DNA from: Diphasiastrum complanatum
Lineage: Eukaryota > Streptophyta > Lycopodiopsida > Lycopodiales > Lycopodiaceae
Direction of reading: 5' to 3'
Length of the DNA: 64,000 nucleotides
Assembly: GCA_029204225.1 (NCBI GenBank)
Contig: CM055099.1
Span: forward strand, 62,976,642-63,040,641
Shown: positions 4,108 to 61,548 of the stretch, piece by piece
Position numbering within the stretch: position 1 is the stretch's first letter
Layout of the letters: every line of letters starts with the position of its first letter
Position numbers and translations under genes: made by a program
Notes under the pieces: model-generated
Told to the model about the DNA's origin: nothing
Seen by the model: the letters and a program-made list of their open reading frames with translations, nothing else
The model's database searches: none

Positions 4108-5382
4108 CTATGTGCGCACTCGGCTTGATCTTTTGGGAGGATTCAACTGATGAACCGCTCCTGGGACTTGTTGCTGGATAGCAGCAATATCTTTGTCTAA
4201 TTCGTTGTCTCGAAGTGGGTCGACAATACATACGCCTGAGTTTGAAGCTCGGATTGTCGTGTCAACGACAGGTGATGAAGGTTCTTCTTGAGCAACATCC
4301 TTGCCTTTGAGCTCGACGAACTGATTCTCAATAAAGACTGTATCCCGACTATACAAGAATTGCTGGATATCAGGATCGTACAGCTTGTAAGTATTATCAG
4401 ACGAAGTATATTCGATCAGGATGGTCTTGAGACCCTGGAAGTCCAATTTCTTCCTTGTGTCCTTTGGGATCTGCACGTAGGCAATGCACCCAAACACTCT
4501 TAGGTTTTTCAAAGAAGGCTTAGAGCCTGTCCAAACCTCGTGGGGTGTCTTGTCTAAGAGGGCCTTGGTCGAACATCTGTTCGGGACGTAAGCTGTAGTG
4601 GAGACAGCTTCAGCCCAGAATCTCTTGGGCAACTGCGATAACATACATTTAGAAGATTCGACCAGAGTACGGTTCTTCCTCTCAGCTAAGCCATTAGATT
4701 GAGGACTGTAAGGAATGATGAATTGCTGCTCAATGCCTTGGCTTTGGCAGTACTCCTTAAACTCGATAGAGATATATTCTCCACCGTTGTCTGACCTTAG
4801 GGCCTTGATCGTCCTTCCAGTCTCCTTTTTTGCATGCTCCTTGAAGATTCTGAAGCAGTTGAAGGCTTCTGATTTCTTCTTTATGAAGTATACCATAGTT
4901 CTTATAGAGAATTCGTCAATAACGGTTATAAAATACTTGGCGTCCTTCAGCGAAGGATTTTTCATCGGGCCACAAATATCTGAATGTACAATATCTAGCA
5001 ATCCTCTAGCAACATGTTGATGGCTCGAGTTAAATGGTTTCCTAGTCTGTTTACCAACTAGACAGTCTTGACAGACAGGTAACTCGACCTTTTCGTGAGG
5101 ATAGTCGAGATCAAGAACAATAGATTGTCTAGACATTCGTTGTACATTAGCATGATTCAAATGACCAAGTCTATAATGCCAAAGTACTCCTTTATTTGAA
5201 TGAATTGAAGAACTGAGAGCCTGACTAGAGGCAGAAAAGCAATGACTCAACTTATACAAGTGTCCATGCCTCTTTCCGAGTGCTAGGATCTTGTCTGTTC
5301 TATCAACTACTTTACATTGATCACATTCGAACTCTACTCTATGTCCTAGATCTGTGATTCTGCTTACAGAGAGCAGATTCAT
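4108..5382 (-). pseudogene. copia GAG-pre-integrase and integrase region
   Basis: This is the longest open frame of the window (424 codons). It begins with MNLLSVSRITDLG and a GAG-pre-integrase HHCC zinc site (LWHYRLGHLNH, then CQDC). The integrase core follows, with D in VHSDICGP, D in LRSDNGGEY and E in NGLAERKNRTL, then the RVFGCIAY region and a hinge toward reverse transcriptase. It belongs to the copia element around it. Similar frames occur in several other elements in this window, so it has no claim to be a host gene. Confidence 0.93.
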
Positions 5383-5753
5383 AGATAACTTTGGTACATA
5401 CAGGACTTTAGAGAGTAGCTTAGACTGACCATTTGCAAAGCATAATCTTACAGTGCCTTTACCTTTAATAGCTTGTGTGCTATTGTCGCCAAGGTGAACG
5501 AATTTCTAAGTATTGTAAGGTGTATAGGACTCGAAACAGCTAATGAGGCTAGTCATGTGCTGAGTGGCTCCGAAATCCAAGAACCAAGAACTGTCGCCAG
5601 ATGCTCCTTGATGATTGGTCATGAAGGCATCATGATCCGCTTCTTGAATCGGTTGTGGAGCTTCTGCAGCTACATTTGCCACTTGATTCGACTGTCCTTT
5701 GTTGTTGTTCTTCGCTTTGCTTCGAGCCTTTCTTCTTCTTCTGCTTTGTCAGA

Positions 5754-14439: not shown

Positions 14440-15997
14440 GACCAACAGAAAAATCTGACCTAAGGATCGAACAGTCAAAATCTGACCATAGGGTTGACCA
14501 GTCAAAATCTGATTCAAGGGTCAAACAATAGCAGATGAATCCTTATTGGCTATTCTCCAGATCATAAGACATATAAGCTGTACAACCTGGACACTCAGAA
14601 AGCATTCACAAGCAGAAATGTCAGTTTTCTAGAAGACCAATTTTTTGACCACAAAGAGAAAGTTGCAGCAAATTCCGACCCAAGTATCGAATAGCAGAAT
14701 TCTGATTCAAGGGTCAAATAGTCAAAAATCGATACTGACTCAAAAAAGGAGTCAGAATCTCAACGGACCAAATCACATTAGAGGATCGAGTTTCAAAGAT
14801 TAAATTGATCTAGACAACCTCCATATCTATTTAATGATGATCCAGCCTACTACTTCATGCAAGAAATCAACTTAGCAAACTCGAATTTTCATTTCAAGTA
14901 TGTATCGGATTTCTTCATCAACTACACACTGTATGTAGATGATACTCTAGTATCCAGTATCAATATAAAATTGATGAAGGATCTTAAATGCAATTTAGCA
15001 CTGGAGTTCAAAAGGCCTGATAAAGTTTCAGCCAACTGCTATAACGAATTACAAAAATCGACCTAGCATAGTAAATTTGATGGCAGTAGATTACTTCATA
15101 TCGACTCTGGCAAAAGAGCACTAGCTCAGATTCAACGACAAGTTAAATCTGAAGACCAAAGATTTATAGGATCCACATTAAGGGGGAGTGTTGGAATTCG
15201 ATGCTCAGCCTCAAATCCATTTATTAATGAGCATCATGAAAACTTTACAAAAAACCAAAAAATAGGAGGCTCGAGTTTTTCATAAGCTCGAAAAATCCAA
15301 TATCGGACTTTTTTGACCCAATGTCAAGCCTAATAAATAGAGATTTTCAGACCCTGGATCTGATCGAATCGAGACAAAATTATCCGGGCATCTTCGACCC
15401 TAGATCAGGTTGAATTGGGTCTGATTTTTTGACCCTAACTATTTTTTGACCCAGTATAAAATCGATCATTTGTATATTTTTTGATACTTTGTAAAGCTCG
15501 ATAATGTCAGTCTAAAATCCGCGTGACCCAACGACTTTGCGTTGACAGTCCACCTACATTGTACATACAATTATAATTATGAGGCAGTTGTAATAACTGT
15601 AGAAGAAGTAGTTGTAGATATTTTGAGTATATCAAGATAAATATTTTCATCAAAAAACTTTCTCAAGGATTCTGATAATCTTCTGATATCTAAAACATAT
15701 GATAATTGTTTCTATCAATTCATTCAAATAGTTCTGCTGCATGTGTTATCACACACAACGATTAGAGTTCTCACTTTGTAGCCAGCGTTATCACGCTCAG
15801 CCAGCTGAAGTTTTCAATCCATGCGATTGTACTCCTTGTGGATATCAATCAGATCACATTTTGTCTACACTCAATTGTTGTTCCATTGCGCATTCTTCAT
15901 TCCTTCATTTTGAATGTTCTTTTGCTAATTGTGGCGCTTCCGATCCCTGCACCAAGCTCGCTCAGTCTTTTGCTGCCAATACCACCGATTTTCGACA
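14440..15997 (+). mobile_element. copia element B, 3' half (fossil)
   Basis: Plus-strand copia debris: an integrase-tail block (IGYSPDHKTYKLYNLD), a NYTLYVDDTLV reverse transcriptase motif near 14930, a polypurine tract at 15179-15188 and a 3' LTR (15189-15997). A three-fold ~29-bp repeat of the form AATCTGA(C/T)...GTCAA lies at 14450-14530. The front half of the same kind of element is on the minus strand at 20915-23654. Broken in several places. Confidence 0.8.
15189..15997 (+). repeat. LTR of copia family B, plus orientation
   Basis: 809 bp beginning TGTTGGAATTCGATGCTCAG and ending TTCGACA. It is an inverted match to 22842-23654; a 130-base sample differs at roughly one base in ten. Confidence 0.85.
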
Positions 15998-20914: not shown

Positions 20915-23654
20915 TTGTCCACACCTGATAAGGTGTCTTGTCATTCAAGGCTGTTGTAATGGATCGATTTTGTAGATAGGCTACTATAGTAACAGCTTCT
21001 GCCCAAAATTTCTTTGGAAGAGACACATGGGCCAACATTCTCTTGGCACTTGCAATGAGTGCCTGATTCTTCCTTTGAGCTACACCATTAGACTGAGGTG
21101 AGTAGCTGGTTGTATGTTGTGGTTGTATTCCGTTTTGCAATAGACTTTGAACTCGATGGAGATAAATACTCCTCATCCATCAGAGCGTAGAGCCTTAATT
21201 CTTCTCTGGGTCAATTTTTCTGCTGATGTCTTGAACTGCATGAAGAACCATGAAAGTCTCTAATTTGTTTTTCAAGAAATAAGTTGCAGTCCTCTGAGAG
21301 AAGTCATTGATAAAAGTCAAGATATAGATAGCTTCCCTTGTGGAAATAGTATGCATAGGGCCACAAATGTCCATGTGTACAAGATCTAGCAAATTTCTAG
21401 AAGTATGGACTATATCGGAAAATCGTAGGACTTCTAGTATGGACTTGTACTAAATTCTATTTGGACATTTGTTGAATACCATTACAATTGTGATGGCCTA
21501 ATCTGAAATGCAAAGACATATCAACTGATTCAGAAGTGGAAGGTACAGAGCTTGACAATTAGAAGAATTGTAGTGGCTGATTTTATAAAGATTGCCACTT
21601 CTTTTACCAAACGCTAGAACTTTTCGGGATTTGTCAAAGATGGTGTAGCCTTGTGTGTCAAATTCGACCATCCGACCCAAATTTGTAATTCTGCTAACTG
21701 AGAGCAGATTTTTGGTCAAATTTGGAATGTGGAGAACATTGGTCAGTAACTTGATTACACCCCTCTGAAATTAGACCCTGACTATTCTTTCACCCTCAAT
21801 AGTATGTTTTGAGTTGTCACCAAGTTGTACAATTTGAGAGTGGGTGTATGATTGATAGTCTTTGAACTAGTCCTTGTGGTGAGTCATATGTTGAGTTGCT
21901 CACGAGTCTAGATACGAGGAATCGATATCCTGATTTTGTCTGACCTTGGTCAAAAAGGCTGTTTCATCTTCATTTTGTTGCTGGATCCAAAAACTAGCGG
22001 AAGCAGGATTTGCTTGTTGTTGGAACTGCTTCTTTTTCTCATTGTTGAATTTTAAAGTTATGCAGTCCCTGATAAGATGGCCTCTCTGACAATATTTGCA
22101 GAATAGATTCTGTGTAGGCTGGGATGATGAAGAATCAACATTCGACCCTGAGCCATGACTATGTAGATATGTTTGATCTAACCTTTTGATTTTTGAAATA
22201 TATAAAAGTTGAGTATCTGACCCTAAGCTTGAGGAGGTTGCAGATTTTCTGACTTCCTCTTGTAGGAGCAATAAAAAACTCTTGAATGGGTGAGATGCTC
22301 CTGGATCAAAATTGCCAAGGCCCAATTTTCATAGGCTTCAGGTAGACTCGATAATAGAGTCATAACATCATCAAAATCTTCAATCACTGAGCCAGTTGTA
22401 GCCATTTGCTCCAGAAGGGTTTTGAAAGTGATGAGATGGCTCGAGACACTTTCTGCTTTAGACATCTTTATGTTGAAGAATTTCCTCCTCAAATGTAATT
22501 TGGATCCCTGATACCACGCAAAATTGCTAGGATGTCCCATGCATTCTTGGCAGACTGAGCAACACTTATGTGAATGATTTGAGTGTCTTTGATGTTGAGA
22601 GTGATGTAGGCAAATGCCTTGCCATCTTTTAGTCTCATCAATGATGTCCCACAGTTCTTTGGCTAATAGTATGGCCTTCATTTTGAACTTCAAGACATGG
22701 CAGTTCCTTCTATCGACTCTCTTGATGACAGAAGAACTAGTAGGTAGATCCATTCTAGTTGAGTGAGATCATTGGTAGATACAACAATTTTTAAATACTA
22801 TTGGTTGCGCGCTTGCTAGAGCAACGACTTGGTAGATACCATGTCGGAAATCGGTGGTATTGGCAGTGGAAGATTGAGCAAGCTTGGTGCGGGTATCGAA
22901 AGTGCCACAGTTAGCAGCTAAACATTCAAAACGAAGAAATAATAATAATGTGCAATGGAACAACAATTGAGTGAAGACAAAATGTACTTTGATTAATATC
23001 CACAAGGAGTACAATCACATGAAGTGAAAACTTCAGCTGGCTAAGCGTGATAATGTTGGCTACAGAGTGAGAACTATGATCGTTGTGTGTGATAACACAT
23101 GCAACAGAACTATCTGAATGAATTGATAGAAACAATTATCAGATGTTTTAGATATTACAAGATTATCAGATTCCTTGAAGAAGTCTTATAATGAAGTTAC
23201 TTATTTTGATATACTCAAAATATCTACAACTACTTCTTCTATAGTTATTACAACCGCCTCATAATTATAACTATATGTACAATGTAGGCAAACTATCAAC
23301 GCGAAGTGATTGGGTCGGATTTTAGACCAACAATATCGAATTTTACAAAGTATCAAAAAATATACAAAGGATTGATTTTATACTGGATTGAGAATATAGT
23401 CAAGGTTGGATTTGCCAGGGTCAAAAAAACAGACCCGATTTGACCCGATCCAGGGTCGAAGATGTCCAGATAATTCCGCTTCAATCCGATCCAGGGTCAA
23501 AAAATCTCTGTTTGTTAGGCTTCACATTGGGTTGGAAAAATCTGATACTAGATTTTTTGATCTTCTGAAAAACTTGTGCCTTATGTTTTCTAGTTTTTTT
23601 GTTTTCAGGATGCTCATTAATAAATGGATTTAAGGCTGAGCATCAATTTCAACA
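20915..23654 (-). mobile_element. copia element B, 5' half (fossil)
   Basis: Minus strand, right to left: 5' LTR (22842-23654), a primer-site-like TGGTATC, gag (22223-22753, KFKMKAILLAKELWDII) with a CCHC knuckle CKYCQRGHLIRDC near 22090, GAG-pre-integrase (21498-21719) and integrase with LVHMDICGPM and SPQSNGVAQRKNQAL (20915-21392). It stops at 20915 against the non-coding LTR element. The 3' half is at 14440-15997. Broken in several places. Confidence 0.85.
22842..23654 (-). repeat. 5' LTR of copia family B, minus orientation
   Basis: 813 bp. On the minus strand it starts TGTTGAAATT, then GATGCTCAGCC, and ends CCGACA before TGGTATC. Inverted partner of 15189-15997. Confidence 0.85.
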
Positions 23655-25840: not shown

Positions 25841-26654
<814 letters not shown>

Positions 26655-28609: not shown

Positions 28610-30050
28610 TCGTACTTTACCATAAATCTAATGTGACATCCGAATGGGTAGCATTTACTATAGCCGTGATTGAATTGTGTCATTTTGGGCAAACTCATGT
28701 CTATCAGAATTACAAATTCAACCCATGGTATTTAGGACTTCATTATGGATAGGTTATAGATTATAAAAGAGGTCTTTCCGATTTTTACAAGGTATTAAGG
28801 CAGATCCATGCCATTCTAATCCTTATGTAAGAACCACGTATCTTATGCATATCCATGTTGTCTAAGATCGTTCTGTCGAAAACCTTACAAATAGATAACT
28901 TATACGTCTTTATTATTGGATTGTTAAACAGGTTTGTAAGCGATAGACACTGGAATTTAAGAAGTATGGCGTTTAAGCATAAAAAGTCTTTATTTATTCT
29001 GGTTTCATCCATATAACGAAAGTATGATTTCCTTTACAAAACTAAAAACGTAGATGATTTATACACAAGCTGAGATTTGTTGCTGAGAAGTCGTACTTGG
29101 ATGATTGTAGACGCGTTTTCTTGAGAAGATGCCATATTATTCCTAAGAGTGATTTTTTTTCGTTAGAACAAAGTCATTCAAAGCGTTATTGTCACATAAA
29201 GCATAGACAAGCAAACAACAATGTATATATGTCATAGATCGTTGGTGAACCGATCAGAGACAAAACCAAACAAATTACCAAATGCTCCATCAATGTCCAT
29301 GTAGTGTGAGCACAATCATTTAGAAATGAGTGAAAAGTATGAGGTAGAGCCATCACTGGCCAACTGGCTATCAAGATGCTATGACAATTAATGTGGAGTG
29401 AGAACACTTCCCACATAAATATGAAATGATTGCATAACTAAAGAGGTGATTGCATCAACAAGAGATGAAACAAACCACTTACGATGAAGTAGAAAATGGA
29501 GAAGGCAAGCTTGATAGGGCACACTTTATGCAATTAGCAACCTGCTGAATCGTGTTGTGAAAAAACGTTGGTCGAGAATGAGTGATATATACATTAGAGA
29601 AACTTAGAGCCCAACGAGGGCCTATAAAAAAGATGTTTTTTTTTTTCTCATTTTCGTAGCCATGTGGATCATTAGAAACCTTGATATCAGGCTTCTACGT
29701 AACGTAGCTTTTTTCAGATATAAATAAAATAAAAAAAATTTAAATATAAAAATGTTTTATCGGGCAGCATGTGGAAATGCTTTTAGATGTTGAGGCCTAT
29801 CCTTCCAGCTCATCACTGTCCAAAGAGGCCCAAAAATGTTGAAAATGAATATGACAAATGGTTGGATTGAGAAAATTGATGTAACATTAATGTACAAATC
29901 ATGGTTTACAAGGTTAACTAGAGCTAACTAGTAGCGCCAAATAGTTTTGTATTTTCAATTTTTGCCTACACATATTTTCAGATTCATGGCTTTTGGCCTA
30001 CACAGATTTTCAGATTCATAGTTCAGTGTTTCAAATTTTGGCCTACACAT
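28610..30050. other. Unassigned AT-rich stretch
   Basis: No gene, LTR or RNA gene recognised in about 1.4 kb. Confidence 0.4.
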
Positions 30051-32041: not shown

Positions 32042-33237
32042 TATTGGAAATTAAGCCCACATTTGTCTCCTTGGTGAACAATAATTTCTATTTCAAGATT
32101 CTTCCTACATGTTTATTGATCTTTGATCTAGGGTCAAGTGAAACCTATTTTGGGTTCAAAGTCTGCTCATCTGATACCTGTAGGAATGACAACTTAGACA
32201 ACCAAACTATTTGAAAAACGTCTACAACAGGCTTCCGGCTGATCTCCAGCAAAGGGTAACCAATCCTATTATTTTCCATGTTCAAATGTTAAGTTTAGCT
32301 ATTTGAAGACCATAGAAGACTTGGCCATCTTCAAGGACTTCCACAAACTAGCATTTAGAACAAGTTGAACTGTTGAACTATGCTTAAGAATCGCATTTTG
32401 AAAAAAGCCAACACTGTCGCATTTCGTAAAAAGCCGACACTATTAAAAACACAGGTCATTTCTGCAGACTGTAACGACACTTAGTGTATTTCTATAGACT
32501 GTTGCACCTCATCCACATCAACATTCCCTACGAGTTGACTATGTACACAATGTATAGTTGTCATCTCAAGCCAAATACTTTCAAGTACAACGACTTACTT
32601 GATTAGATGACAAATATTTATTGAAATTAATACATGGATGCAATCTATAAATAGATCATCCCAGCACACTCTATGTGATGCTCTATCTATGAGACGAATG
32701 ATTTTGAGCTTCCCAGTTATGTCGTCATTCTGGTTGTAACTGTCATTGTTGTGCTTCAGTGTAATATAACAGCAATACGCTTTTCTATCTGTGTATAATG
32801 TAGATGAATGCTTATTGTGATTGGAATGCACTTCATTTGATCACACTTGTTCACTCACTCTGATCAGAACACGGACGTCTACGACTCCTCAGTTTTTGAT
32901 CAGACGATGGCTATCTTTGACGCCTGAGGAACTTGCACTATCATACTGCTTTGTCAATTCATTCAGAAGTAAACTTCTCATTAAATCCATTTCTAGTAAT
33001 ACCACACACAAACCATTTCTAATCTCTTCGGTGGACTGTACTCATTTTGTTTTTGTGAGTATGAATTAATTTATAAGATCCTGTTGGGCACAGAACGTTT
33101 AAGTTGTGATTACACTTAGCATAAACAATCTATTAGATTGTTTTGCATCTAGCAACCCTTTATAACGAGAGAGTTGTTCCACAAATATTCCTACTCTCTT
33201 CTCCATTCACGTTCTCTGTACTCCCTTGTCCCCATCA
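32042..33237 (+). repeat. 3' LTR of the 30.5-33.2 kb copia element
   Basis: It begins directly after a polypurine tract (TTAAGGGGGAC) and repeats the start of 30473 onward. The right end at 33237 is inferred from the CA ending and the near-match flank. Confidence 0.6.
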
Positions 33238-34260
33238 TATCCATCCAATATAAATGAATGGGATCCAAGTGGATCTCTTGTTGGTGTGTTAGATGCAATA
33301 CATACTGATATTGAACATCTGCAATATAGAGGTAGAACTGTAAAAGATCTTGCTGATTGTGAAATCTTCTTTTATAAATCAATGTACATTTCTGATATAA
33401 ATGAAAATTTTGGGCAAATAGTCCCAATTCCATTACCTAGTTTTGAAAGTGATGAATGGGTTGCTCCAGATGCTGTAGCATCATAATCATTTCGTTGCAA
33501 ACTATATAATGATATAAAAAATTCTTAAAAAATAAGCACGTGTTCAAAAACAGTTCGAACAAGTTGATTTATTTCTTTGATATATTTTTGGATTTCTTTT
33601 CAAGTGTCAATGTACACAAAACTCCAACAATGTTTGAATGCAAAAATTTATCAAATAGTTTATTATCTGAATTTATGGATAAAGGCTGGGACAAAAAATC
33701 AAATGGAGAAATAGAATGCAGAATTAAAATGCCTTTATGTGCTTTCGCTATCAAATAGAAAAGCAAATGTTGAGCTTATGCTTCCATTATCAAAGATGGA
33801 AAAAGAACAGGAGTAAATGAGTGCCACTTGATCAAGACTTGGAAGCCACTGGACATTCTAAGCGAAAAAAGATTGAAATAATATACAATGATGCACTTTT
33901 GACATGTGTTTATGTGGAAGATGATTGGAGCCTAAATTACATCAGGCAGGAACTGTTGCTCCTACAAGATAATATATTTTCCAACTTCAGATTCATTTCA
34001 AATGGTAAACTCGTAAGTAACTGTAAACATTCTATTTTTTTGTATAATTTCTTTCAAAAATTGCTCATATAATCTTTATACAAAATGTAACATACTTTGT
34101 GTTAAATTTATGCATGTACGTAAAAGACGAGCTTGAGATCAAATGCAAAGATATTGGCGAAACTATCCAACTGATGAAAGAACACTGAGATTTACTATCA
34201 GAAAATACACGTCCATCATCATTACTCAAGATGAAAACAAGAATCGTCTTTTATCAATGT
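33238..34260 (+). pseudogene. Unrecognised coding-like blocks, probably a degraded gene
   Basis: Three plus-strand stretches read like protein but not in one frame. The first (33238-33486) includes NEWDPSGSLVGVLDAIH and SFESDEWVAPDAV. The second (about 33600-33757) includes NLSNSLLSEFMDKGWD. The third (33821-34010) includes TCVYVEDDWSLNYIRQEL and FRFISNGKLV and ends at a good donor (CTCGTAAGT at about 34009). I recognise no family; the third block has the feel of a small ubiquitin-like fold, which is only an impression. Together with 30056-30391 this may be the remains of a multi-exon gene split by the copia element. Low confidence. Confidence 0.3.
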
Positions 34261-34639
34261 AAAAAAATTGCAATCTAGTATTGTACAATGGACACAACTT
34301 GATTGTAGGAATTCATATTGATATCAATAAAATTCCCATAAATGGGTTGTCTACATTTATGATTCTGTCTCCTTTTTTGGATAGTAATATATACACATTT
34401 ACAATTGAAATTCTATTTAGTAAATTTATCTATATTCTCTATATTAGTATCAAGAGCTGTGATGGCAACAATCTCTTGTCTTGTAATTTCGCCTTCCTCT
34501 ATATTAGGAAGGACTCCTCCTTATTTATTTTTATTGAAAGAATATTTAGGCTCCAATGCCGACTGCAACAAGCAAAATAAAAATTAGAATCTATTCTGAC
34601 ATGAGCATAATGATCAAAATAAAAGGAATCAACAACATA

Positions 34640-35040
34640 TAGCAAAGCTTACTTATTCTCATATGGAATCAGGCAGAATTTGGCCACAGGACTGCAATCG
34701 ATGAAATATACAACCTTTTTAAATTTGGCCTCTTTTGCCTTCACAACACCCATGAAAAATGGACTCACAACAAAAATGAGTCCCTCCGAATCCATACTAA
34801 TACTATGCTGCAAAAAAATTTGGTCGACATCAACAATCACATCTGTGATTTCTGAACTTTTATATTTAAGCTCTATACAAAATTTGGGACCTAATCTATA
34901 GTTTCTATTTCAATTTGGAAGGAAAAAGTCAAAATCATTTCCGAGCAAATCAATTTTATTGCCTAAATAAGTCTCATATTGATTGCAATGATCAGAAGAG
35001 AAAAAAAAATTGATTGGGATTGCATGGGATTCTAACAAAA
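34640..35040 (-). pseudogene. Unrecognised degraded coding-like region
   Basis: On the minus strand, downstream of the H3-like frame, a protein-like reading ends at a stop near 34649. It includes NDFDFFLPN, KFCIELKYKSSEITDVIV and SEGLIFVVSPFFMGVV, with an internal stop and an apparent frame change. No family is recognised. It could be a separate gene remnant or a decayed downstream exon of the H3-like locus. Confidence 0.25.
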
Positions 35041-35244
35041 AGGTTATGTACAGGTTTTGAATCTGATGCCCCAACAATACTAATGGATTTTTAAGTTATC
35101 TTATCAAGCTCCTCTTGGGTAATCTCCACCTTCGGTGAAGAAACCTTCTGAGGATCTGGACAAATAACAACAGGAGGAGATGGAGATTCTCTTAATCAGA
35201 ATCTGATTCAGAGGACAAAAAGATCCAAGGTCACTTTTCAGGGA

Positions 35245-35769
35245 TTACCTTAGAGGAAGGGAAGTAGCTAGCCTATGAGATCCAGCTTTCTTAGAAACAG
35301 CATGTTTTCTTTTCCTTCTTGAGGTAGCTGGCAAGTAAGTTCTATCCAAAGGCAGGTCTCTGGAGGTGCTAGCGTTATCCACATGAAGACCTAAATACCG
35401 GTCCCGAAGTCGTTTGAGAATAACAAAATCTTTAGGCATGATGGTAACACGCTTACCATGCATTGCCAGAAGACATGAATACTCAAAAAATTGGGATAGG
35501 AAATCTTCAACAACACTTTGTGAGACATGCATGGCTGTCGCGGCAAAACGAACATCTAGCCCAAGTGACAGGGTGACATTTCTAACAGATCGGCCAAAAG
35601 GAGCTCTAGGGATCAACAATTCTGTTGATCTCTGGAGTTTTCTGATCTCCCTCAACCAGACCTCCTTCCTACCATGTCTATGGCTAGTACCAGGGGGGAC
35701 ACGGGCACGGGAGAGATGTACAGAGGTAATAGCATGGGCAGTGGTCTTCATCCTAGCCATCATGGTCAA
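35245..35769 (-). CDS. Divergent histone H3-like protein with C-terminal extension
   Basis: A single intact frame of 174 codons. If the fourth codon is the start (35760), the tail reads MARMKTTAHA against the canonical H3 MARTKQTARK: Lys4 is kept, while Arg8, Lys9, Ser10 and Lys14 are replaced, and the tail is about 13 residues shorter than canonical. The histone fold follows: LREIRKLQRSTELLI, PF-R--VR, DVRF, a FFE block and GKRVTIMPKD, with about 40 of 85 positions (H3 numbering 48-132) identical by eye. His113, Arg116, Thr118, Lys122 and Asp123 are present. Loop 1 has canonical length and Phe84 is kept, which speaks against CENH3. A ~50-residue extension follows, with a basic patch (SRRKRKHAVSKKAG) that could be a nuclear localisation signal. 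It presumably packages DNA in nucleosomes; this is inferred. It has no intron in the frame, and a possible donor sits at the stop (CTAAGGTAATC). Expression is unknown. Confidence 0.75.
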   Translation of the reverse strand: MTMMARMKTTAHAITSVHLSRARVPPGTSHRHGRKEVWLREIRKLQRSTELLIPRAPFGRSVRNVTLSLGLDVRFAATAMHVSQSVVEDFLSQFFEYSCLLAMHGKRVTIMPKDFVILKRLRDRYLGLHVDNASTSRDLPLDRTYLPATSRRKRKHAVSKKAGSHRLATSLPLR

Positions 35770-36100
35770 ATATAAAAGAAGGACACAAAAAATATTTGTA
35801 GAAGAAAAGACACAAAAAGATTTTCGAAAGAAAGGACAAAAAATAAATTTTGCAACAGAAAGAAGATTGATAGACAGAGTATCGGTTTGGAGCGCAAGAT
35901 TATTAATAGAAAAAAAAGGAGTTGAAGTTCTGTGCTTAAAAGCGATATTGAAGATATCGTGGTATTGATCTCGAGCGCGGGGGATGTTGGCGGGTACTAG
36001 GAGGCTGTTGGACGCGCTTGAATTCGATATTCAGATGTAAAAACTGAAAATTTGCGAGAAAAAATCAAAAATCCGTGGGGATATTTAGAAAATTTTTTTT

Positions 36101-36237
36101 GCACGTGTGGAAAATTGACATGGGACATGTGGCATTATTTCGGTGGTCCACGTGTCAGTCCGTATAGTAATTATGACTCATTGATGAGGGTCATGTGGGT
36201 ATTTGCCATGTGCCCTAATCAAATTTAGCCACGTGTC
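36101..36237. promoter_or_regulatory. Cluster of three CACGTGT (G-box/ABRE) words
   Basis: GCACGTGTGG at 36101 and CCACGTGTC at 36148 and 36229 lie 330-470 bp upstream of the H3-like start codon on the minus strand. CACGTG words bind plant bZIP/bHLH factors. No canonical histone octamer (CGCGGATC) is seen nearby, and a link to the H3-like frame is only positional. Confidence 0.4.
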
Positions 36238-37135
36238 ATTCGGCACGTAACAACTATCACATCAATCATTTTATGTACGGATTAATCCGAATAGTAATCA
36301 TCCTCACACCTTCTAAAACACTCTCACAAGAACCAAGCCACATTCATCACTCACACGCTCAACCAAATACTCAATCCATTCAATCAAACCATTGCAATCT
36401 CAACACCATACAAACTTTGAATCAAACCCTAATCACCACACTAACATTAGTGGCCTCCATAAGAGAGTGGGGGAGTGGTGCATTCAAGGCTCTCTTCCAA
36501 AACTAGCCAAGATGCCATTTTTGTCAAAGGCTAGGGAGGCCATTCAAGTTTTTCCTTTTGTACACTCTAGAAGCCCAAAATGTCAATGGCTAGTGGGTGT
36601 ACCTCCCAAAGTTTTTAGCCTCCAAGGTGTTTTGGCATTTATTATCCAAATTTTGGGTGAGGCCTTTTTTCAACCCCTATTTTTAGTAGGCGGCCTTCAT
36701 TTTTCTTTGTGTACCTTTGTTTTTGGCCTACCTTCAATTTTTCAAGAGTCGTGCGCCTACTGCTCATTTGTCTGGGTTTTTAGTCTGTTGGGTAACCACT
36801 TGGCCCACACATTTCATTAATTGCTCGTAAATTGCCCAAACCTTGCCGTTAGGATTTCTATGATTCCTTGACACTGAATCCATATTTCTCGGTCTCATTT
36901 TTACCCAAAACTTTTCTTTCTTGGTTTTTTCTTCTGTGGTTGACTTTTTCGCCCTTCAAAATTCCAAACTAGCCCACTATTGGGCAAGTGCACCATTTTC
37001 CACTTACACTTTGTATCATTCGAGCACATTGAACAATGCAAGTGATGTAATTTTTTTGAGCCCAAGAGCAATCCCCATGATAGATTGTTATGGGCTGCTG
37101 ACCAACTCAAACCATTCTTGGCCAAGGGCCAGGTT
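36238..37135. other. Unassigned stretch
   Basis: Plus-strand open frames (for example 36392-36820) show no known domain. Its right end carries the AGGTT copy of the target duplication, so this DNA continued into 42519 before the copia insertion. Confidence 0.4.
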
Positions 37136-39499: not shown

Positions 39500-39921
39500 A
39501 TTACCCTAAAACAACTGGACAAACAAATATCCCAAAGTCGGTTGGAGATTACCAACTTTTTGTACATATGCAAAGACTGGTATAGATAGTCTTAAAGGCT
39601 TGTAAGATATTTTTGACACTTGTAAATCTCTATATTAGCTTAATCAAGCTATGTAATTTTCAATTTTTGGAATTTCTCTTTCAATCAGAGTTATCTGTAG
39701 CCAGCGTTATCATGCTCAGCAAGCTGAAGTTATTACTTCAAGCTATTGTACTCACTGTTGATATTTTATCAGGGTGTAGTTTTTTGTCTCACTATTGCGT
39801 TGTTCATTTGCGCAACTGTATGAATTCTTCTACTTGAATATTTTTGCTGCTAACTGTTGCGTTTCCATTCCTACATGAGCAACCGAGCCTCCGCTGCGCT
39901 CACGACCACCATTTTATGACA

Positions 39922-41793: not shown

Positions 41794-42518
41794 ATTTCTT
41801 ATGCTCAGTCTTAAACAAATTGTTCAAGTAATGAGCATCCTGAAAAACTGAAGGCTGACAACATATTTTCAGGCCTTCACATTTTTTCCTTGTTGAGATT
41901 TTCTATGCCTCAGAAATCATTTTAAGGCACCTTCGTCTTTTTCGTCTTTTTTGCTCCTTAGCGAAAAATGCGACAAACTGGCCAAGTGGCAAGAATATCT
42001 TAGAAATCATTTTTTAGGCACCTTTGCATTTTCCTCGGCCTTTTTCGTTTTTACCGCATTTTTGGGCTGATCGACTTCGCCAACTCATGGGTTACCCTAA
42101 AACAACTAGACAAACAAATATCCCAAAGTTAGTTGGCAGTTACCAACTTTTGTATATGCAAAGATTGGTATAAATAGCCTTAAAGGCTTGCAAAATATTT
42201 TTGACACTTGTAAATCTCTATATTAGCTTAATCAAGCTATGTGATTTTTTATTTTTGGAATTGCTCTTTCAATCGTTATCTGTAGCTAGCTTTATCACGC
42301 TCAACAAGCTGAAGTTATTACTTCAAGCTATTGTACTCACTGTTGATATTTTATCAGAGTGCAATTTTTTGTCTCACTACTACGTCGTCCATTTGCGCAA
42401 ACTGTATGAATTCTTCTGCTTGAATATTTTTGCTGCTAACTGTTGCGTTTCCGTTCCTACACACCTACGCTCTGAGCAACCGAGCCTCCACTGTGCTCAC
42501 AACCACCATTTTACGACA
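41794..42518 (+). repeat. 3' LTR of the 37.1-42.5 kb copia element
   Basis: Shares its start with 37141-37234 and its end with 39500-39921. It ends TTACGACA before the AGGTT duplication. Confidence 0.88.
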
Positions 42519-54689: not shown

Positions 54690-54869
<180 letters not shown>

Positions 54870-56740: not shown

Positions 56741-59026
56741 GATAGTCAATATTGAAAATTTGTGAAAATTTCCTTGCCACTAGTCAATCCTTTTTTTATG
56801 TAGCCACATTTCCTTATGTCGATGTTGCCACCTGCTTTGTACTTGATCTTAAAGATCTATTTCTAGTCTATAATCTTTCTGCCTACATGCAAATTAGTGA
56901 TAGTCCAAGTGTTATTTTTTATCATCAAATTGTATTTTTTATCCATAGTTTTCTTCTAAAGATCTGAATCAGCCTGTGTGAGTGCTTCTTTGACTATGGT
57001 TGGCTCATGGGAAAGATAGTAACCATACTCATCAATGAATCTGATAGGTTGAGTTCGAATTCTTGTAGATCTTTGGGGAGGTGCTTCTGGCTACAAAATT
57101 TGATGTTGTGTCGACTGCTCCTGAGTTGTAGCTTCTTGCTCTTTTTCATAATCTATTTGTATAGACTAGCTACTTTAGGGGGAATTGCATTTTGATATTC
57201 ATTAGTATTCAGGATAGGAATGATAGGTAAAATCTAGTTCTTGCCCTTCAAGTTGATAACCTGATCTTCATAAAATGTAACATCCTTGCTAGTGAAAACT
57301 TTATAGGTAACAGGATTATACAGTCTATACATGCCATTTGAAGAAAAAAAATCGACAAAAATTTGTTTTCATAGAATGCTCATCCAGTTTCTTTCTGGTG
57401 TCTTTAGGGACATGAGCATAGCAGTACATTTGAAAACTTTTAAATGCTTTGGTAAGGTTTGAATCCAGTCCAAACTTCATAAGAAGTTTGTTGTTCAATA
57501 AAGCTTTAGTGATACATCGATTCTGCAAATAAGCTGCTATCGAAGGCAATGATGCATGAGTGATTATACATTTAGCAAATTCGACTAAGGTTCTGTTTTT
57601 CTTCTCTGCAAGTCAATTGGACTGAGGAAAATATGAAGTAGTGAATTGTTGTTTGATTCCTTTTGTCAAGCAATACTCCTTGAATGCATTGGATATGTAT
57701 TCACCACCATTGTCCATTCTAAGATCTTTGATCTTTCTTCATGTGTGCAGTTCAACATGCTCTTTATAAATCTTGAAAAAATGGAAGGCTTCGAATTTGT
57801 GCTTCATAAAATAATTAGAAGCTCTTCTCAAATAATTGTCAATAAATGTAGTAAAGAATTTAGCACCAAATAATGTTGGTGTCTACATCAGGCCACATAT
57901 ATCTGAATATATTGTTTAACAAATTTCTCGATACATTTGTTGATTCGACTTGAAAGGCCTTCTAGAGGTACATGATTCAAGTACCCAAGTCTATAATGCC
58001 AAATTGATTCTTTATTAATCAAAAGTGAGCTGCTAAAGGATGATCACTCACAGAATAGCAATGAGTAAGCTGATATAGATATCCTTGTCTTTTTTCAAGT
58101 GCAAGGACTCTCTTCTCTTTATTGAGAATTTTATAAGTATACGATCCAGAATTTACATATGTTCTAAATCAGTGATTTTGCTTATAGACAACAAGTTGGT
58201 TGCTAGAATTGGAACATGCAATACTTTTGGAATGATTTGGATTGTCCATTCTAAGAAATCAGCTTGACAGTATAGAACATTTTCTTTCTGTTATGAGCAG
58301 GTTGTTGATTCTTATTCGAGGTTGCCTTGAGAGATTGCTTCCGATTCATGTCGAATTGTTTGACTACCTTCTTCTTCTTCAATTGTTTCTTTGAGACTCT
58401 CTTGGAGTATAGTGCTCTTGAGTCTTCGATGGAGGGACGAGGATGCACCATTCCTTGGAATCTCCTCCTACAATTATGACTATAGAAAAAGAAAGTTCTG
58501 AGTGGGTCAAAATAACCATCACCTATTTTTAGTATGAGGATGGCAAACTAGGCAATAAGGTCATGACAGCATCTGAGTCTTTGATGATTGAACCTATGGC
58601 TACCATCTGCTCAAGTTGATTAATGTGATTCTGAATAGAAATGGTTTTTGACATTTTGAGAGAGAGAAATTTCTTCCTCAAATGTAGTTTCAAAGTGATG
58701 TCCCTCACTTTGTAGAGTGTGCCCAGAATGTCCTAAGCTTTCTTGGAAGCTTGGAGTTGTCTGATGTGGCCAATTTGTGTGTTTGATAGATTAAGGGTGA
58801 TTAAGACGAAGGCCTTACCCTCCCTGAGCTTCCTTTTAGAAATGGCTTGCTCATCGACACTGGGAAGTAGTTTGACACTTGCAACTATCTCCCATAGTTC
58901 CTTGACCATTAGTATGACTTTCTTCTTGACTTTCCATATATGATGCAGATAGTAGATTGTATGATTTCAAAACAATTTAGTGAATGCTTACTCTTTATTG
59001 GAACGAGAAATGTTCTAATATTGTAT

Positions 59027-59518: not shown

Positions 59519-59727
<209 letters not shown>

Positions 59728-60410: not shown

Positions 60411-60572
<162 letters not shown>

Positions 60573-61364: not shown

Positions 61365-61548
<184 letters not shown>

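Follow-up and report, generated by a model that had tools for sequence, protein, structure and literature searches.

Few known proteins are as conserved as histone H3. Its centromeric counterpart, CENH3, is defined by a loop 1 longer than that of H3 and by a Trp (or Tyr) that replaces Phe84. Kinetoplastid H3s are divergent and are not centromeric. In the part of a plant H3 survey cited here, plant H3s are sorted into the classes CenH3, H3.1, H3.3, and 'H3-like', the last characterized by degenerate tails, deviant residues at positions 31, 41, 87, and 90, and variable introns (PMC4357034). Divergent H3s are also described from plant generative cells and, in the cited portion of that work, are not clearly separable from the cenH3s (PMC3380720). 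Beyond H3, flowering plants possess H2B.8, which its source describes as a variant core histone that carries an additional disordered region and occurs in sperm and seed (PMC9668745).

The minus strand of positions 35245-35769 within a 64-kb sequence of Diphasiastrum complanatum, the whole of which is called the window below, carries a reading frame whose product is, judged by its sequence, an H3-family protein with an H3-type fold (Table 1). The Pfam Histone family (PF00125) is matched with an E-value of 2.8e-25 (89.4 bits, where the cut-off is 26.4), and among 178 matching PDB sequences the best 60 are all H3s or CENP-As, with H3.3C at the top (74.8 bits) and human CENP-A at 74.5 bits, which bears out the H3 fold recognized in the first-pass annotation. 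Its estimate by eye of ~47% identity agrees with the 42 of 89 ungapped fold columns shared with plant H3.1 (41 of 85 in a second column set), a provisional reference sequence, as are those for plant CENH3 used below; a BLASTP alignment to H3 that includes the tail has 54 of 132 positions identical (41%) and 13 gap positions. Canonical H3.1 and H3.3 are ruled out by the 42/89 identity and by His, Thr, and His at positions 41, 87, and 90, residue 31 being unassignable. When H3 was searched against the 459 stop-to-stop frames of at least 50 amino acids in the window, this frame was the single match.

Table 1. Positions in the window of the histone frame, its parts, its 5' flank, and the same-orientation repeats on either side
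Feature	Position	Strand	Remarks
Intronless coding frame, H3-like protein	35245..35763	-	ATG at 35763 or 35760; stop TAA 35245-35247; 172/171 aa
N-terminal tail, 33 residues	35662..35760	-	13 residues shorter than canonical H3; ARxKxTA with Lys4 kept; lacks Lys9 and Lys14
Histone fold, residues 34-122	35395..35661	-	No gaps against canonical H3; loop 1 as long as in canonical H3; Phe84 retained
C-terminal extension, 49 residues	35248..35394	-	11 K/R, 3 D/E; predicted charge +8; RRKRK cluster
Promoter-like 5' flank	35764..36290	.	Highest CpG observed/expected in the 64-kb window
TATA-like TATTAATA	35901..35908	-	148 bases before ATG; consensus match only
E2F-like CCGCCAA	35987..35993	-	233 bases before ATG; consensus match only
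Three CACGTG boxes	36102-36107, 36149-36154, 36230-36235	.	Two inside a 13-bp direct repeat
Same-orientation spanning repeat pairs	15761-15951 with 39684-39875; 15777-15946 with 42281-42457; 5151-5409 with 57971-58227

The frame had been annotated as intact with 174 codons and no strand stated; it is indeed intact and open, but it lies on the minus strand and runs for 171-172 codons from an ATG, as TTG and ACC, with which the count of 174 begins, stand upstream of the first ATG and codons 3 and 4 are the candidate starts. From the second of these the protein begins MARMKTTA. The stop-free stretch at the locus extends over 261 codons, and in 200 base shuffles of 33001-37000 the longest such stretch averaged 95 codons and never exceeded 162; the plus strand in the same register contains many stops. 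Within 35094-35248 on the minus strand, the stop codon of the frame overlaps a good splice donor, AAG/GTAATC, and a putative 58-base intron to 35191, with the weak acceptor TTAAG, would create an in-phase join with a 34-codon protein-like stretch ending ...KVEITQEELDKIT. Given this donor and the in-phase stretch, the real C terminus of the protein may depart from the genomic frame.

Read without gaps from the N terminus, the tail retains A1, R2, K4, and A7 and has Ala at position 9 and His at position 14, so the earlier description of a tail with Lys4 but without Lys9 and Lys14 was accurate. Only two lysines occur in the 33 residues, which precede V46, and the YRPGT stretch of H3 (41-45) reads HGRKE. 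Within the fold, Pro replaces R63, Ala replaces L65, and Tyr replaces D106, among other changes, and presumed DNA or tetramer contacts such as R49, R69, R72, R83, F84, K115, R116, T118, M120, H113, D123, and R129 are kept. The extension, annotated as ~50 basic residues, has the expected length and composition, and its GC content is higher at codon positions 1 and 2 (50/98) than at position 3 (16/49, p 0.037), a bias that fits coding sequence; in the fold the codon-position bias in GC is insignificant (p 0.24).

Among the described systems, the Diphasiastrum protein has the formal features of the 'H3-like' class: a degenerate tail, residues off the H3.1/H3.3 diagnostic set (H41, T87, and H90), and a gene structure without introns, which that class allows; as the cited part of the survey treats that class as a heterogeneous remainder, the assignment says little (PMC4357034). 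The 49-residue extension sets the protein apart from that class. Identity of 47% in the fold is also, presumably, far below what is expected of its members. The lily proteins gH3, gcH3, and leH3 are likewise divergent plant H3s without clear separation from cenH3, and the description of gcH3 and leH3 as having fold deletions distinguishes them from this frame, which has none (PMC3380720, in the part cited). The annotation's view that no described plant H3 class shows this combination was therefore too strong, since both a heterogeneous 'H3-like' class (PMC4357034) and divergent generative-cell H3s (PMC3380720) appear in the cited portions of these sources. A search of the open-licence literature by titles and abstract openings, which is weak evidence of absence, found no plant H3 with a comparable extension. 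As outlined in its source, H2B.8 offers an analogy only, that of a core-histone variant plus an added region; it is an H2B and not an H3, and no kinship is claimed (PMC9668745).

The pattern of change within the fold argues for a constrained protein. Seven cenH3s (three plant and four non-plant), scored by fold column, served as the reference. The Diphasiastrum protein keeps the canonical residue in 16 of the 18 columns that all seven keep, in 9/17 of those that six keep, and in 1/9 of those that none keep, and none of 20000 permutations attained the sum that describes this pattern. Across the columns kept by at least five cenH3s it retains 32/47, while Drosophila CID retains 26/47 and the other six cenH3s, each judged by the remaining six, retain 32-35 of 36-38; the protein is thus under weaker constraint than most cenH3s, with a looseness similar to that of CID. 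When neutral decay of an H3 fold to 49% identity was simulated over 91 codons, 21 of 400 runs stayed free of stops; extrapolated to the entire frame, the expectation is about 5 stops, with indels extra. It should be noted that, if the gene were newly copied from a divergent parent that is itself functional, it would owe both intactness and conservation pattern to that parent. The CpG-rich 5' flank is, unlike the pattern of change and the absence of stops, a line of evidence specific to this locus.

In 500-bp windows the CpG observed/expected ratio has a median of 0.48 and rises to its highest value anywhere in the 64 kb, 1.40, at 35791-36290. The 500 bp before the ATG have a ratio of 1.28, a value that only 7 among 6351 windows attain, each of them inside the same peak; with 400-bp windows a peak at 1501 follows close behind (1.33 versus 1.46 at the H3-like flank). 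Further CpG-rich peaks in 500-bp windows occur at 1501-2000 (1.19) and 28751-29250 (1.13). If this genome loses CpG through methylation, the high ratio suggests that the flank has long been unmethylated, as promoters are. When the flank was resampled 5000 times under a Markov model, three CACGTG boxes never arose; across the whole window the motif occurs seven times, a count equalled or exceeded in 18 of 100 shuffles, and is not over-represented. The E2F-like and TATA-like matches weakly point to a promoter. Such motif matches do not prove one, and the CpG-rich stretch could serve a plus-strand feature instead. As regards the annotation's alternative of a gamete-specific histone, a DUO1-type pattern (RRCSGTT) is absent from 35000-36500. 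A bacterial promoter scan, a method unsuited to plant DNA, gave nothing above shuffles.

Taken together, the intact frame, the H3-fold conservation pattern, and the CpG-rich, promoter-like flank fit the first-pass reading of a new, highly diverged H3 variant, and we regard the locus as a genuine, diverged gene of the H3 family that in all likelihood functions, and file it provisionally under 'H3-like'. The gene could alternatively be young and non-functional, having arisen as a retrocopy or duplicate from a divergent H3 gene that functions at another place in the genome. Its lack of introns and its position amid many Ty1/copia pieces would agree with such an origin, and intactness alone fails to separate a young copy from a gene. 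We nevertheless consider a dead copy unlikely: no poly(A) tract of at least 8 occurs within 1.5 kb downstream of the frame, the longest plus-strand T run in 33745-35244 being 7, and the flank argues for an old, unmethylated promoter that a dead copy would not have brought along. The reading preferred here, to which we give about an even chance, is that of a fast-evolving, functional gene that encodes a divergent H3 variant such as plant surveys file under 'H3-like'.

The relationship to CENH3 deserves separate consideration. Counted after VR and up to residue 84, loop 1 has the same length as in H3, 12 residues, against 13-14 in the three plant CENH3s (provisional sequences), and residue 84 is Phe; by these defining features the protein was tested as a CENH3 and is not filed as one. 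The annotation had noted that loop 1 and Phe84 are unlike plant CENH3, and both observations hold, but several derived residues elsewhere are CENH3-like. The fold is divergent, as in CENH3 and CENP-A, and carries P63, A65, and T75 as in the plant CENH3s used, together with W47, L54, F99, and L110 as in human CENP-A; the missing loop-1 insertion, F84 in place of W/Y, the short tail, and the C-terminal extension all differ from that family. By phmmer, human CENP-A (74.5) scores near canonical H3 (Arabidopsis H3.1, 73.2), followed by rice CENH3 (65.7) and Arabidopsis CENH3 (59.0). Among the best 60 of 155 PDB chains matched by an Arabidopsis CENH3 query there was no plant CENH3 structure.

Trees on 88 and 85 columns placed the protein on a long branch (1.45 and 1.29) with no well-supported neighbour; human CENP-A was its neighbour in the first tree (support 45/82), and neither tree joined it to plant CENH3. 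None of the placements submitted to the AU test was rejected at 0.05. Grouping with plant CENH3 gave p 0.196 and 0.162 in the two trees, in both with the provisional CENH3 references. In the first tree the values were 0.067 with the canonical H3s, 0.28 with all cenH3s, and 0.214 with Arabidopsis CENH3 alone; in the second they were 0.113 with H3.1 plus H3.Y, 0.201 with kinetoplastid H3s, and 0.36 with human CENP-A.

Shared departures from H3 provide a further comparison. Where the Diphasiastrum protein and Arabidopsis CENH3 both depart from H3, they agree in 9 of 24 columns, with 1.7 expected from BLOSUM45 draws, and this is the level of Arabidopsis and grass CENH3s compared with each other (8/22 and 10/24). 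Additionally, P63, A65, and T75 occur jointly in 3/3 of the plant CENH3s used, in 0/4 non-plant cenH3s, and in 0/2 kinetoplastid H3s. These agreements, and an AU test that does not reject the plant CENH3 clade, are consistent with a CENH3-derived paralogue, probably processed and hence intronless, that lacks the loop-1 insertion and with it the centromere-targeting signal, and that would have taken on a new role or compete with CENH3. Conversely, agreement with the grass CENH3s is only 4/23 each, Arabidopsis being the best of seven cenH3 comparisons; the others are human CENP-A (5/19), Cse4 and Cnp1 (4/17 each), and CID (5/32), with H3.Y at 2/11. The kinetoplastid H3 controls agree in 3/17 and 4/21 columns, which shows that A65, V74, and L130 are not specific to CENH3. 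Shared constraint may also have led to convergence, since distant cenH3 pairs such as human CENP-A and CID (10/23) or rice CENH3 and CID (9/23) show that such counts can arise without close kinship. With canonical loop 1 and Phe84, and with no union with plant CENH3 in either tree (again with the provisional CENH3 sequences), descent from CENH3 is a real possibility that we hold to be less likely than the preferred reading. The fuller scenario, in which a histone of the CENH3 lineage shed its centromere-targeting loop, shortened its tail, gained a basic C-terminal extension, and acts outside or against centromeres, appears slightly less likely still.

The same residues (P63, A65, and T75, and the 9/24 agreement with Arabidopsis CENH3) could be taken to indicate the plant's own CENH3 with an atypical loop 1. 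In the cited part of the plant survey no CenH3 was found in Picea abies, which was ascribed to assembly gaps (PMC4357034), so a gymnosperm CENH3 might look odd. The canonical length of loop 1, F84, and the short tail speak against this, as does the absence of introns, given the 7 and 4 exons reported for the two rye CENH3 genes in the portion cited (PMC5732303), and we regard it as quite improbable.

The window is rich in Ty1/copia pieces, and the annotation had suggested that the gene may have been captured by a mobile element. A self-comparison of the window, set to pairs of at least 80 bases and E up to 1e-10, yielded a list of 25 repeat pairs. Seven of these span the frame at 68-83% identity, with at least about 4 kb between the frame and the nearer arm, three in the same orientation (68-72%) and four inverted (73-83%); no arm comes closer to the frame than position 23066 below it or 39684 above it. 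None of the 25 listed pairs is LTR-like around the gene, and 34701-36500 has no second copy within the window. The setting among Ty1/copia pieces and the three same-orientation pairs spanning the frame from afar would be compatible with a host gene carried by an element, but the arms of those pairs, separated by 24-53 kb, share no more than 68-72% identity, no pair encloses the frame closely, and the CpG content of the flank is of the unmethylated type. With the poly(A) result as well, the suggestion is unsupported, and we consider capture highly improbable. A scan of viral and prokaryotic contigs with six short exact peptides, which detects close relatives only, found no relative, and the window gave no hits with Rfam (gathering scores) or in a tRNA scan.

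For a functional variant of the 'H3-like' kind, several properties can be predicted. Based on the retention of H113, D123, and R129, presumed to serve pairing, and of R49, R69, R72, R83, F84, R116, and T118, presumed to contact DNA, the protein would pair with H4 and enter nucleosomes. As the tail lacks Lys9 and Lys14, such nucleosomes would escape the marks placed on these residues, and the loss of YRPGT should leave looser DNA ends. The basic extension would provide extra contacts with DNA or linker and promote nuclear import, while the G-box/ABRE-like promoter might confer restricted, bZIP-driven expression, for example, and as a guess, in seed or pollen. Should the gene have been retained, an H3 that has half of its fold residues altered, lacks Lys9 and Lys14, and carries an extra basic domain would mean that some plant nucleosomes run outside the usual marking system; should it derive from CENH3, it would represent a natural test of the residues that make a histone centromeric.

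Several other open stretches occur near the gene. On the minus strand, 34416-34520 (35 residues) and 34652-34909 (86 residues) are exon-like. Fusion of the histone with the coding-like minus-strand stretches 34652-34909, 34416-34520, and 35094-35195 was considered and set aside: none of them matches a Pfam family up to E 1, and 34652-34909 had no PDB match up to E 10. The plus-strand stretches 33166-33483 (106 residues) and 33821-34069 (83 residues) are protein-like and have no Pfam match above the cut-off. Further off on the plus strand, a frame at 47261-47830 matches DUF3455 (PF11937, 1.7e-07). The window also contains long perfect (GA)n arrays of up to 100 copies at 26471-26653, 54693-54867, 59524-59723, 60413-60568, and 61370-61547.
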